From an uncultured Jannaschia sp. (GTDB lineage: Bacteria; Pseudomonadota; Alphaproteobacteria; Rhodobacterales; Rhodobacteraceae), in contig NZ_CANNEZ010000001.1 of assembly GCF_947503795.1 (NCBI RefSeq), positions 363,001 through 427,000 of the forward strand: 64,000 bases of DNA, written 5' to 3'. How positions within the stretch are numbered: position 1 is the stretch's first letter; the number at the start of each line of letters is the position of its first letter. This document shows, piece after piece, positions 54,371 to 59,024 of this stretch. The notes beneath the pieces are model-generated. The model did not search any database. It was given only the letters and a program-made list of their open reading frames with translations, and had not been told where the DNA came from. The translations under genes were made by a program, and so were the position numbers.

Positions 54371-56269
54371 ATGAGCCGCAGGACGACGATCGCCACATCC
54401 GCCGCATTCGTGCTGGCCGCCGCTGGCGCGGCGAGTGCCGCATGGCTGGCCGCCGGCGTGATCGAGGAGCGTTCGCGCAACGCGGTCGCCGCGACCCTCG
54501 CGACGGCGGAGATGGGCTGGGCCGGGGTCGAGACCGACGGCCTCCAGCTGATCCTCACCGGCGTCGCCCCGAGCGAACCTGCCCGCTTGCGTGCCGTGAC
54601 CCGCGCCGGAACGGTGGTCGACCCCCGCCGGATCGTCGACGGCATGGATGTCGAGGCGTCCGAGCCGGTCGCCGCCCCGCGCTTCTCGCTCGAGATCCTG
54701 CGCAACGAGACAGGCGTGTCGCTGATTGGCCTCGTGCCCAGCGCGGGCGGGCCCGAGATGCTGTCCGAACTGCTGGCCGAGCTGAACGCCAACATGGCGC
54801 TCGACGTCACCTCGATGGTCGAGAATGCCGACCACCCCGTGCCGCCCGCCTGGGACGAGACGCTGCGCTTCGCCTTCGCCACGCTCGAGGGCCTGCCGCG
54901 CTCGAAGATCAGCATCGTGCCGGGCCGCATCTCGGTCACAGCCGTCGCCGACAGCGCCGAGCAGAAGGCGCGGCTCGAGACCGAGCTGGCGCGCGCGCGC
55001 CCCGAGACGGTCGCGCTGGAGCTGGAGATCGCGGCCCCGCGCCCGGTCATCACGCCCTTCACGCTGCGCTTCGTGATGCCCGACGGGGCCGCACCGCGCT
55101 TCGATGCCTGCGCCGTCGACAGCGCCGAGGCCCGGACACGGATCCTTGCCGCTGCCGGTGATGCCGGGTTCGAGGGCAAGGCGCGCTGCGAGATCGGGCT
55201 GGGGGTGCCCTCGGCCTCCTGGGGGGAGGCGGCGGCCCTGTCGATCCGCGCGCTGGCCGAGCTGGGCGGCGGGTCGGTCACGCTCTCGGATGCGGATGTC
55301 ACGCTGGCGGCGCATGAAGGCACGCCGCGCGACCCCTTCGACCGCATCGTCGCCGAGCTGGAGACCGCGCTGCCGGACATCTTCGCGCTGACCGCCGTCC
55401 TGCCCGAACCGGCCGATGCCGACGGCACCGGCACGGCGTCCGGCACGCCCGAATTCGTCGCCACGCTTTCGCCCGAGGGGCAGGTGCAGCTGCGCGGACG
55501 GCTTTTCGACGAGGCGCAGGAGAACGCCGTTCTCAGCTACGGGCGCGCGCTGTTCGGCGTGCAGCGCACCTATATCGCGACCCGCAACGACGCGACCTTG
55601 CCGCAGGGCTGGCCTGCGCGCGTGCTCGCCGGGCTCGACGCGCTGTCGCGGGTCGAGAACGGCTCGGTCGTGATCCGCCCCGACCTCGTGGTGATCCGCG
55701 GGATCACCGGCAACCCGCGCGCCGAGGCGGATATCTCGGGTCTGCTGTCGTCGAAGCTTGGCGCCGAAGCCGAATACCGGATCGAGGTCGACTACCGCGA
55801 GGAGCTGGACCCTGTCCTGAACATCCCCACGCCCGAGGAATGCGAAGCCGAGCTGAACGCCATCCTGGTCGAGCAGAAGCTGACCTTCGCACCCGGCGAG
55901 GCCGTAATCGAGGAGGCGGGCGACGGACAGCTCTCGCGGCTGACGTCGAAGCTCGACGACTGCAAGCGCGCCGCCTTCGAGATCGGCGGCCACACCGACA
56001 GCCAGGGCCGCGAGGAAATGAACCTCTCGCTCAGCCAGCAGCGCGCCGAGGCCGTCCGCGCCGCCCTCCTGTCGCGCGGCGTGCCGCCCTCGCAACTGGT
56101 CGCGACGGGCTTCGGCGAGGCCGATCCGATCGCCGACAACGACACCGAGAGCGGCCGCGAGGCGAACCGTCGCATCACGTTCACCCTGCTCGGCCGCCGC
56201 GATGCCGACGCGCCCTCGCCGCTGCGCGAGCGGGCGACGGCCGCCGAGACCGAAGGATCCACCGAATGA
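54371..56269 (+). CDS. OmpA-family peptidoglycan-associated envelope protein with BON-like repeats
   Basis: A 632-residue envelope protein. One N-terminal transmembrane helix or uncleaved signal (TSAAFVLAAAGAASAAWLAAG, in part) is followed by about 450 residues of repeated alpha/beta segments resembling BON-type domains (for example ILTGVAPSEPARLRAV, LIGLVPSAGGPEML) and a C-terminal OmpA domain with IGGHTDSQGREEMNLSLSQQ and GFGEADPIADNDTESGREAN, which carries the peptidoglycan-binding Asp and Arg. It should bridge inner membrane and cell wall. The next gene is coupled by ATGA. Confidence 0.87.
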   Translation: MSRRTTIATSAAFVLAAAGAASAAWLAAGVIEERSRNAVAATLATAEMGWAGVETDGLQLILTGVAPSEPARLRAVTRAGTVVDPRRIVDGMDVEASEPVAAPRFSLEILRNETGVSLIGLVPSAGGPEMLSELLAELNANMALDVTSMVENADHPVPPAWDETLRFAFATLEGLPRSKISIVPGRISVTAVADSAEQKARLETELARARPETVALELEIAAPRPVITPFTLRFVMPDGAAPRFDACAVDSAEARTRILAAAGDAGFEGKARCEIGLGVPSASWGEAAALSIRALAELGGGSVTLSDADVTLAAHEGTPRDPFDRIVAELETALPDIFALTAVLPEPADADGTGTASGTPEFVATLSPEGQVQLRGRLFDEAQENAVLSYGRALFGVQRTYIATRNDATLPQGWPARVLAGLDALSRVENGSVVIRPDLVVIRGITGNPRAEADISGLLSSKLGAEAEYRIEVDYREELDPVLNIPTPEECEAELNAILVEQKLTFAPGEAVIEEAGDGQLSRLTSKLDDCKRAAFEIGGHTDSQGREEMNLSLSQQRAEAVRAALLSRGVPPSQLVATGFGEADPIADNDTESGREANRRITFTLLGRRDADAPSPLRERATAAETEGSTE

Positions 56270-56589: not shown

Positions 56590-56624
56590 GGGGCTCGGAC
56601 TCCGAAATAGCGGCTAAGCGGACA

Positions 56625-56661
56625 AAGCGGACCTTCACAGCGTTAGATCGAAGGTCCGTTT
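56625..56661. other. 12-bp inverted repeat / hairpin downstream of the OmpA unit
   Basis: AAGCGGACCTTC and GAAGGTCCGTTT form a 12-bp stem (one G-T pair) around a 13-nt loop. It lies 36 bp after the coiled-coil gene. No U-tract follows, so it may act as a Rho-dependent or weak terminator, or as a stabiliser; a binding site is also possible. AGCGG is repeated three times just upstream. It marks the left edge of the AT-richer island. Confidence 0.55.
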
Positions 56662-56719
56662 AGTGCGTAAACTCACAAAAAAGTCTTGTCCGCCCAAGCA
56701 CTTGTGTGATAGCCGGTCG

Positions 56720-56873
56720 GAAATCGGAGTAAATGATGAAAGTACGGCTTTCAGAACGAGATACCTGGACCAACGCCCTAGCGGGGTGCGTGGACTAGGT
56801 ATGCGCATCCTCCAAGGTTAGGTTTGCGAAAACCTTTCTCTCAGGGCGGCACCTTCAGGTAGCCGCCTTTTTT
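56720..56873 (+). ncRNA. Candidate structured small RNA
   Basis: A stretch with RNA-like organisation ending in a strong intrinsic terminator. Parts in order: a GGAG-ATG start opening a 20-codon ORF (56736-56798); a long hairpin closed by ATACCT/AGGTAT (56761-56802) with inner pairs CCAACGC/GCGTGG and CCC/GGG; an unpaired TCCTCC (56808-56813), able to pair with Shine-Dalgarno sequences; a hairpin AGGTTT-GCGA-AAACCT with a GNRA tetraloop (56820-56835); then the terminator. A possible promoter is TTGTCC (56686) with TGATAG (56707), but the spacing is short. The 5' end is a guess. It could be a trans-acting sRNA or a leader with a short peptide. Confidence 0.5.
56845..56873 (+). terminator. Intrinsic terminator of the candidate small RNA
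   Basis: GGCGGC-ACCT-TC-AGGT-A-GCCGCC followed by six T. A 10-bp GC-rich stem with one bulged A and a tight loop, then a U-tract: a textbook Rho-independent terminator on the plus strand. Confidence 0.9.
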
Positions 56874-56901
56874 GTTTCAAAAACCCAAGGAGATCAGAGC
56901 T

Positions 56902-57051
56902 GTGTCCAATCAGCTATTGGAAGAACCTGACGATACAGTGGAGACCGCGCACAACTGCGCGGTCTCCCTGATCTCATCTTCACGCATACGACACCAGCGT
57001 TCTGTTCCGACATTGCCGCCTTCGGCAGTGAATACAGAAGAATTGCCTTAA
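56902..57051 (+). CDS. Possible small protein (49 aa) in the AT-richer island
   Basis: GTG 56902 is preceded by AAGGAG (56887-56892) at 9-nt spacing and opens 49 codons ending TAA. The peptide is MSNQLLEEPDDTVETAHN, then a Ser/Arg-rich middle (SLISSSRIRHQRS) and ELP at the end. It contains no transmembrane helix. A perfect 12-bp inverted repeat (56940-56967) lies inside the frame, which may instead mean the region is an RNA structure rather than a gene. Third-position GC is low compared with the chromosome. I do not recognise it. Confidence 0.35.
   Translation: MSNQLLEEPDDTVETAHNCAVSLISSSRIRHQRSVPTLPPSAVNTEELP
56940..56967. other. Perfect 12-bp inverted repeat with CAAC loop
   Basis: GGAGACCGCGCA-CAAC-TGCGCGGTCTCC. 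A very stable hairpin, not followed by a U-tract. It lies within the possible 49-codon gene and 89 bp before the tRNA promoter -10 region begins. Role unknown: attenuation, transcript end or recombination relic are all possible. Confidence 0.7.
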
Positions 57052-57055
57052 CTTA

Positions 57056-57103
57056 TTGATTTAAAATAATAAATTGACGCTCACCGCTCGCCCGATGTAT
57101 GAA
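57056..57103 (+). promoter_or_regulatory. Strong promoter with UP-like element for the tRNA pair
   Basis: An A/T tract (57056-57073, ATTGATTTAAAATAATAAA in part) precedes -35 TTGACG (57074-57079), an 18-bp spacer and -10 TATGAA (57098-57103). Transcription would start about 8 bp before tRNA-Glu. This is the best sigma-70-type promoter I see in the window. Confidence 0.7.
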
Positions 57104-57118
57104 GCTCTCATCTGCTCT

Positions 57119-57193
57119 GGGGCGTTCGTCGAGTGGTCAGGACATTCGTCTTTCTAACGGAGAACACGGGTCCGAAACCCGTACGCCCTACCA
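57119..57193 (+). tRNA. Atypical tRNA-Glu (anticodon TTC)
   Basis: A 75-nt cloverleaf with encoded CCA. Acceptor GGGGCGT/ACGCCCT, closing with a G1-U72 pair; D arm GTCG/GGAC with a 13-22 mismatch; anticodon arm TTCGT-CTTTCTA-ACGGA; T arm ACGGG-TCCGAAA-CCCGT. The layout (U8-C9, GTC D stem, 4-nt variable loop) is that of tRNA-Glu. Oddities: U37-A38 instead of A37-C38, C55 instead of the nearly universal U55, A73, and a weak D stem. A37 and the 13-22 pair contribute to glutamate identity in E. coli, so charging is uncertain. Same transcript as tRNA-Asp. Confidence 0.8.
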
Positions 57194-57203
57194 AGCAGAT
57201 TGC

Positions 57204-57278
57204 GGTCGCGTAGCTCAATGGGAGAGCACCGGATTGTCTATCCGGGTGTTGCGGGTTCGAGTCCCGTCGCGACCGCCA
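57204..57278 (+). tRNA. Atypical tRNA-Asp (anticodon GTC)
   Basis: A 75-nt cloverleaf with encoded CCA: acceptor GGTCGCG/CGCGACC, U8-A9, D arm GCTC/GAGC with a short loop, perfect anticodon stem CCGGA/TCCGG around TTGTCTA, T arm GCGGG-TTCGAGT-CCCGT, discriminator G73. Aspartate identity bases G34 U35 C36, G10 and G73 are present. The anticodon loop is odd: U37-A38 where normal tRNA-Asp has A37-C38; C38 is an identity base and the Dnmt2 methylation site in other organisms. The same two positions are changed in the neighbouring tRNA-Glu. The 187 bp after it, up to trcR, hold nothing I can identify. Confidence 0.85.
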
Positions 57279-57465
57279 CGCGCTCTAATCCTAACCGAAG
57301 CTTGTGGTTCCGTCCCCGAGACCAACATTCGCCGCACTGCGGAAGTTCAGCACTTTGGGCTCGAACCCGACCTCCGCCGCACGGCATTGACCCGCCATGC
57401 GACCCTGGCTCCGGGTCGCCCGGTACCCCGAGCCGCGCGTTCCAAGCACGGCCCGGACTCGGCGC

Positions 57466-58382: not shown

Positions 58383-59024
58383 ATGCGCCTGACTGTCCTG
58401 CTCGGCTTCCTCCTTGCGACCCTGACGCCGCCCGCCGCCGCCGAGGGCGAGGCCGCGGGCGCGTTCGATTACTACGTGCTGTCGCTGAGCTGGTCGCCGA
58501 CCTGGTGCGCGCTGGAGGGGGACGATCGCCAAGCACCTGAATGCGCGGCGGGTGCGGCGCGGGGCTTTTCGCTCCACGGGCTCTGGCCGCAATACGAGAC
58601 CGGCTGGCCGAGCTATTGCCGCAGCCCCCACCGCGAGGCGACGCGGGGCCAGACGGCGGCGATGGCGGACGTGATGGGATCAGCGGGGCTGGCCTGGCAC
58701 CAGTGGAAGAAGCATGGCCGATGCTCGGGGCTGACGGCGGAGGACTACTTCCGCCTGGCGCGGCTGGCCTATGAGCGGGTCCAGCGCCCCGCGATCCTGC
58801 GCGAGCTGGGACGCGCGGTGACGCTGCCGGCGCATGTCGTCGAGGCCGCTTGGCTTGAGGCCAATCCCGCGCTCGAGGCGGACGGGATCACGGTGACCTG
58901 CCGCGCGGGCCGCATCCAGGAGGTGCGGCTCTGCCTGACACGGGATCTCGCGCCGCGGCGCTGCGGTGCGGACGTGGTGCGCGACTGCACGCTGGACGCG
59001 GCGCTGCTGGCGCCGCTGCGCTAG
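58383..59024 (+). CDS. Secreted RNase T2 family ribonuclease
   Basis: A 213-residue secreted nuclease. The signal peptide (MRLTVLLGFLLATLTPPAAA) is followed by both catalytic segments: FSLHGLWPQ (CAS I) and WHQWKKHGRCSG (CAS II), with the two catalytic histidines and Glu/Lys replaced by the local WKKHG pattern. Eight cysteines fit a disulfide-stabilised periplasmic or secreted enzyme. It cleaves single-stranded RNA. Its stop overlaps the convergent EAL gene by 4 bp. Confidence 0.92.
   Translation: MRLTVLLGFLLATLTPPAAAEGEAAGAFDYYVLSLSWSPTWCALEGDDRQAPECAAGAARGFSLHGLWPQYETGWPSYCRSPHREATRGQTAAMADVMGSAGLAWHQWKKHGRCSGLTAEDYFRLARLAYERVQRPAILRELGRAVTLPAHVVEAAWLEANPALEADGITVTCRAGRIQEVRLCLTRDLAPRRCGADVVRDCTLDAALLAPLR

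Follow-up and report, generated by a model that had tools for sequence, protein, structure and literature searches.

A patchily distributed tRNA-Glu/tRNA-Asp cassette with leader open reading frames in Rhodobacteraceae: a possible self-sensing tRNA back-up

Cleavage of tRNA serves bacteria as a weapon, both against phages and against competing bacteria, and the counter-measures we know of, spare tRNAs carried by phages and repair ligases, do not to our knowledge sense which tRNA has been lost. Attenuators are normally starvation sensors: in attenuation of the trp or his type, a short leader ORF with control codons and alternative hairpins precede a terminator-like hairpin ahead of the controlled genes. 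In T-box leaders, the leader RNA senses tRNA charging. Many tRNA genes can also stand together in arrays on chromosomes or mobile elements, and passages of van den Berg et al. propose that phage tRNAs evade anticodon nucleases (PMC10264068).

The locus described here lies in a window (the whole stretch of DNA analysed) of 64,000 nucleotides from an uncultured Jannaschia sp., in which a tRNA-Glu and a tRNA-Asp gene form the end of a cassette of up to about 690 bp that a small number of Rhodobacteraceae carry, each at a different location. Its parts recall trp/his-type attenuation, but it would control tRNA genes for the same amino acids that its leader encodes, the Rhodobacteraceae copies (modules, below) have two leader ORFs in series, and its switch is predicted. 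In the proposed sensing of tRNA charging it is like a T-box leader, but its specificity would reside in ORFs and not in a tRNA-binding RNA, and in the stretches covered Rfam matched no T-box model, even with E values up to 1 allowed. The arrays, exemplified here by Saprospiraceae, have the same variant tRNA-Asp loop, but hold many tRNAs and no recognised leader. Like the nuclease-evading phage tRNAs (PMC10264068, in the passages on evasion), the pair consists of spare tRNAs with changed anticodon loops; unlike them, it is chromosomal and has cognate leader ORFs. We give a probability of about 0.5 to the reading in which a mobile cassette supplies the pair as back-up tRNAs, attenuation in its leader senses a shortage and the spares resist nuclease. 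The parts are of known kinds; what appears new is their combination, which was not found in the open-licence literature among the matches listed.

The tRNA-Glu(UUC) gene at 57119-57193 and the tRNA-Asp(GUC) gene at 57204-57278 (window coordinates, forward strand here and below unless noted) both encode CCA and are genuine by the agreement of ARAGORN and Rfam, with RF00005 scores of 47.6 and 66.5 bits against a cut-off of 29. As the initial annotation had it, both anticodon loops, CUUUCUA in tRNA-Glu and UUGUCUA in tRNA-Asp, carry U37-A38. The rarity it ascribed to a pyrimidine at position 37 is borne out in this genome, where the 41 tRNAs found with Rfam have A37 in 31 cases, G37 in eight and U37 in two, the latter being the pair. 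Listing the other Glu and Asp tRNAs showed that ordinary copies exist, so the cassette pair is extra. The ordinary tRNA-Asp (loop CUGUCAC, 75% identical to the cassette gene) has the expected A37-C38; the ordinary tRNA-Glu (loop UUUUCAA, 69% identical) has A37-A38, so that the annotation's A37-C38 for standard isoacceptors applies to tRNA-Asp only. Two further peculiarities reported for tRNA-Glu fared differently: C55 is real and private to this copy, the nine other intact module tRNA-Glu genes having TTC there, but the G1-U72 pair, although present, is shared by nine of ten intact module genes, the exception being G1-C72 in genome G018. U37-A38 occurs in five of the ten intact module tRNA-Glu genes. 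Since its tRNA score is low and its C55 is private, the tRNA-Glu gene here may be decaying. Among the 41 tRNAs of this genome there is no tRNA-Ile(GAU) or tRNA-Ala(UGC), perhaps because the assembly lacks its rRNA operons or has them withheld.

Homology by blastn to the module at locus L066 sets the extent of the whole cassette at 56606-57292 (we label genomes G and loci L, with G000 for this genome). The homologous stretch measures 692 bp with L066, 673 bp with L068 and 541 bp with both G024 and L041, and blastn between modules found no homology outside it in the 4-kb flanks. We recognise ten Rhodobacteraceae modules (G000, G024, G018, L041, L052, L062, L065, L066, L068 and L070), and neighbouring ORFs, judged by eye, are dissimilar among eight of them. 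Seohaeicola saemankumensis and Mameliella alba are among the carriers. Across 60 genomes, this one and 59 relatives, identity to the pair above 90% is confined to G000, G024 and G018, and a sequence pattern for the variant tRNA-Asp matched four of 295 family genomes (one per genus), three of the matches being tRNAs (G000, G024 and G209). The upstream gene could be placed beside the DUF1013 gene in six of 11 same-genus loci; none of these six sites has a match to the cassette. The two genes are 114 and 161 bp apart in two of the loci, and in the remaining four a different sequence, 791-1226 bp long, separates them. Because matches above 90% occur in three genomes only, flanks differ and the sites of six relatives lack the cassette, the pair looks horizontally acquired. 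The corresponding gap here, 56590-57465, is an insertion-prone spot, its contents varying between relatives (114-1226 bp).

The earlier idea of a phage or island origin thus stands as far as horizontal acquisition goes, but phage carriage is not supported so far. When the tRNA pair was compared with phages by blastn, a single record matched at least 80% of it, at 71% identity, and no cassette was recognised among the 30 of 231 records listed. Against plasmids, 56600-57300 matched 20 records, none covering 80%, and the best among the ten of these listed covers 22%, at the tRNA end. With these two queries and the leader motif of Lewinella relatives (below), no carriage of the cassette on a phage or plasmid was seen, and no transposase was seen inside the cassette. 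An RNase T2-like gene, named by eye, lies at 58383-59024, 1.1 kb downstream of the pair; it was rejected as a partner of the cassette, as the RNase T2 gene adjoins the DUF1013 gene in all 11 same-genus relatives without the pair. In G018 the module is split over two contigs (L031, 13712-15487, and L032, 1-166), its two tRNAs on separate ones, and beside its tRNA-Glu is an ORF of 591 amino acids that by eye reads like a large serine recombinase and overlaps the 3' end of the tRNA, because of which an element seems to have inserted at that end.

Upstream of the pair the unit differs from the two tRNA genes behind a strong promoter of the initial description: a terminator-like hairpin and other conserved hairpins accompany two leader ORFs, whose codons match the tRNAs. 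The ten modules have a common order of ORF1, a GC-rich hairpin with a T-run, ORF2 with a stretch resembling a ribosome-binding site and an acidic start, a further hairpin, an AT-rich promoter-like stretch, tRNA-Glu and tRNA-Asp. The single promoter proposed earlier was again read by eye; a consensus scan flagged a different site, its only one and near chance expectation. Two putative promoters, both read by eye and neither flagged by the scan, are P1 (TTGTCC/TGATAG-like, 56685-56712) and P2 (TTGACG N18 TATGAA, with an AT-rich stretch, 57052-57103). ORF1 (56736-56798, MKVRLSERDTWTNALAGCVD) runs to 20-26 codons among the ten modules and contains S-E-R-D in this genome, with GAA-CGA-GAT at 56754-56762; its start, stop and E-R-D are kept in nine of the ten, and L065 has D-R-D. 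This short leader ORF is conserved, including its start and stop codons, in all ten and also in L763, a locus found by a search described below. Hairpin H1, of eight pairs, covers the ORF1 stop codon (56783-56810). The next hairpin (56843-56873) is of intrinsic-terminator type with a T-run; it was missed by a simple terminator scan, folds in the modules tested and precedes the tRNA genes in the modules, the G018 copy (L457) being interrupted by an insert of roughly 120 bp with inverted-repeat ends. The sequence CGCCCT at 56774-56779, a proposed antiterminator arm read on the alignment, is complementary to AGGGCG at 56843-56848.

ORF2 (56902-57051, MSNQLLEEPDDTVETAHNCAV...) starts with GTG, behind AAGGAG at 56887, and its start region can be aligned across the ten modules. 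It contains a run of Glu and Asp codons, GAA GAA CCT GAC GAT ACA GTG GAG (56920-56943), the end of which is overlapped by a hairpin at 56940-56967. This hairpin was taken from single-sequence folds, since the alignment misaligned the hairpins of the most divergent modules; it is found in all ten, with z from -7.8 to -1.4 against mononucleotide shuffles. The motif CATACGAC at 56985-56992 is present in all ten modules and L763 with at most one change, and falls in differing reading frames among modules. No non-tRNA Rfam family reached its cut-off in the leaders; a sub-threshold match to ASdes at 55655-55715 on the reverse strand (26.5 bits, cut-off 40) is probably due to chance.

The structures and the codons were both examined statistically. 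In H1, 86.1% of alignment cells are paired, with two pairs changed on both sides, and in the terminator-like hairpin 87.9%; for the two together, in nine sequences, the figure is 87.1%, which none of 500 shuffles reached, and slid controls gave 40-55%. Their covariation score, from modest pair counts in a small alignment, was reached by one of 500 shuffles. At five aligned ORF2 positions, 49 of the 50 codons in the ten modules are GAN, Glu and Asp interchanging. Glu and Asp are mildly enriched in the first 20 residues of ORF2 (P 0.009-0.099 per module) and not enriched in ORF1 (P 0.21-0.81), which offers only E-R-D; these and the other leader-codon P-values are a guide only, because the matches had been seen before testing and sequences within a group are related. 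In L065 the tRNA-Glu gene is broken and the leader has S-D-R-D in place of S-E-R-D, a suggestive case for the mechanism proposed next.

The proposed mechanism is attenuation of the trp type. A shortage of charged tRNA-Glu or tRNA-Asp would make ribosomes stall at the Glu and Asp codons of the leader; with the terminator prevented from forming, transcription would continue into the tRNA genes. A stall at GAA or GAT in ORF1 would free CGCCC to pair with GGGCG of the terminator, and a ribosome at the ORF1 stop codon would hide CGCCC; ORF2 may be a second sensor, and P2 would supply a basal level of the tRNAs. An anticodon nuclease or some comparable toxin might bring about the shortage, and the U37-A38 spares would resist it. 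Switch folds were computed for eight of the ten modules (the L066 and G018 sequences, as extracted, ended before the terminator), and only for L068 did the minimum-energy fold give the predicted antiterminator switch; in this genome's folds the terminator is favoured whatever the state. Lying immediately ahead of the tRNAs, P2 could also render the leader irrelevant. That leader and tRNAs are coupled we consider probable, and that the cassette senses a tRNA shortage is an idea we lean towards slightly.

Support for the coupling comes from an out-of-sample test with a covariance model built from ORF1 through the terminator only, which was run on 394 family genomes. It gave 26 matches at E<=0.05, five of them below 1e-5, and all five of these precede tRNA-Glu and tRNA-Asp; the loci of the 21 weaker matches have no tRNA. 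Three of the five strong matches (G000, G024 and G209) were already known and a fourth, G929, equals L062 over the 900 bp compared, so that G125 (locus L763) is the sole new locus. Its ORF1 contains NERD and the opening of its ORF2, as given, reads PDEDDDPSEERDD / PDEDDDPSEERDDP / MPDEDDDPSEERDDP, with acidic residues at nine of 14 positions after M (P=9e-6) or nine of 20 (P=4e-4). Its loops are UUUUCAC in tRNA-Glu and CUGUCUA in tRNA-Asp, with U37-A38 in the latter and not in the former.

The variant tRNA-Asp extends beyond the family. A stricter pattern, searched in genome contigs of 84,980 species, gave 35 loci: nine Rhodobacteraceae/Rhodobacterales records, Asticcacaulis sp. AC460, one Acidimicrobiales, one gammaproteobacterium and 23 Bacteroidota, of which 19 are named Saprospiraceae and are mostly tRNA clusters. 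These Saprospiraceae loci (L042-L075) are chromosomal clusters that share the variant tRNA-Asp, reach about 18 tRNAs in size and have no recognised leader, and two of them, L061 and L071, have a tRNA-Glu with CTTTCTA. A leader was recognised in 13 of the 35 loci, namely the nine Rhodobacteraceae (L055 and L067 through G024 and G018), Asticcacaulis, L048, L064 (through L718) and L074, and not in the other 22, in some cases because little upstream DNA was available.

In Asticcacaulis and in Lewinella relatives, where the variant tRNA-Asp has other partners, the leaders are enriched in codons of their operons' own tRNAs. Two ORFs lie upstream of the tRNA-Gln/tRNA-Asp operon of Asticcacaulis: NRQSQQRRDRRDS..., behind which comes a terminator-like hairpin, and MRQQRDIL, directly before tRNA-Gln. 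Gln and Asp make up seven of 25 residues in the first (P 0.015) and three of seven in the second (P 0.033), and 13 of 25 (P 1e-5) and five of seven (P 1e-3) if Arg is included. A tRNA-like stretch with an Arg(ACG)-like loop, seen by eye in this operon, was called by neither ARAGORN nor Rfam, and is not counted as a tRNA-Arg. Five Lewinella relatives (L048, L074, L544, L550 and L718) have operons of Ile, Lys, Asp and Asn tRNAs, with Met in two, behind leaders such as MINSIKIKRFDRRDIRRVINA, in which 8-11 of 19-20 residues are cognate to the operon (P 5e-4 to 2e-2). All five leaders can adopt mutually exclusive folds, a small hairpin over CGAGAU and a long one that uses its 3' strand, and none has a terminator hairpin with a U-run. 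In L048 and L074, the tRNA-Asn loop is CCGTTAA, with C33 in place of the near-universal U33. Comparing the groups, enrichment of Glu is confined to the Rhodobacteraceae ORF2 and that of Gln to Asticcacaulis, and the Lewinella group has the highest values for Ile, Asn and Lys. In all three groups the ORF1-type leaders are rich in Arg, although the Rhodobacteraceae and Lewinella operons have no tRNA-Arg.

Viral genomes show pyrimidine-37 repeatedly in tRNAs that decode GAN codons, to judge by its counts in viral tRNA-Asp and tRNA-Glu and by the viral loci found by way of UUGUCUA. It is present in 16 of 113 tRNA-Asp, seven of 124 tRNA-Glu and seven of 1795 other tRNAs of viral contigs (Asp against all others, Fisher P=2e-13, with related phages left in). 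This count pools four scans, in two of which most Asp and Glu tRNAs were met incidentally, for a total of 256 loci and 2032 distinct tRNAs; identical tRNAs were counted once, tRNAs without a three-letter anticodon and loci L076 and L077 were left out, and the fourth scan contributed only its newly numbered loci, L653-L689. A viral scan keyed to UUGUCUA, which therefore yields no frequency, found the string as the loop of a tRNA-Asp in 69 of the 80 loci read; one locus was a tRNA-Ser with the string outside the loop. The leader motif of the Lewinella relatives was found in 58 viral contigs, with no tRNA on the same strand within 2.5 kb downstream, six of the 58 having less than 600 bases there. 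The viral loops are in line with the evasion proposal in the relevant passages of van den Berg et al. (PMC10264068). A term search of its main text gave no match for Asp, Glu, A37 or U37, and in the open-licence literature no report of U37 in phage tRNA-Asp or tRNA-Glu was found among the matches listed. Because the cassette's loop change parallels that of viral tRNAs, escape from nuclease by loop-altered tRNAs is a reasonable idea, one that we draw from the loops and hold tentatively.

Three other explanations have to be weighed against the back-up cassette. The tRNAs could be nuclease-resistant spares with altered loops that are made constantly from P2; the ORFs and hairpins upstream would then be another gene, for a small RNA or a peptide, that moves together with the pair. 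The promoter-like element and AT-rich stretch that we read by eye directly before the tRNAs would suit this, as would the lack of a switch in most modules' folds and the parallel with viral loops, but the model of the upstream part finds the pair in five of five matches at E<1e-5; leader codons also match the tRNAs, including in other lineages with other tRNAs. We judge it unlikely.

Alternatively, the pair might be left over from phage or array tRNAs, caught in a mobile island where it drifts with no present role, which we also regard as rather improbable given that ORF1, the acidic run, the hairpins and the Asp loop are kept in ten modules across genera (most of the ten had been found by searching for that Asp loop; L763, found without using it, keeps CUGUCUA). 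What speaks for relics is that the same Asp loop occurs in many viral contigs, as in 69 of 80 loci of the loop-keyed scan, and in Saprospiraceae tRNA clusters, that the tRNA-Glu gene here has C55 and a low score, and that the tRNA-Glu of L065 is broken. A specialised purpose for the tRNAs, such as a response to amino acid starvation or the donation of aminoacyl groups outside the ribosome, would fit the unusual position 37, the G1-U72 pair and the normal use of attenuators as starvation sensors. By eye, however, no biosynthetic or transferase gene is common to the neighbouring ORFs of eight modules, and we think such a purpose very unlikely.

If the reading as a back-up cassette is taken further, these loci may represent a kind of tRNA-rescue operon not described before, mobile and self-sensing and spread over two or more phyla, that would shield the bacterium, and not a phage, from anticodon nucleases; we put this somewhat short of an even chance. 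Such an operon's leader would sense when precisely those tRNAs are lost whose genes follow it, and turn on surviving copies with altered loops, a complete account that we advance with more doubt than confidence. In the open-licence literature, no tRNA operon controlled by a leader peptide was found among the matches listed. Through the cassette, the pyrimidine-37 loops, concentrated in viral tRNA-Asp and tRNA-Glu, acquire a meaning that can be tested. If the account is true, the leader codons, by naming the operon's own tRNAs, would make the sensor readable in the sequence, and the leaders of these cassettes would reveal which tRNAs of a lineage are being attacked.
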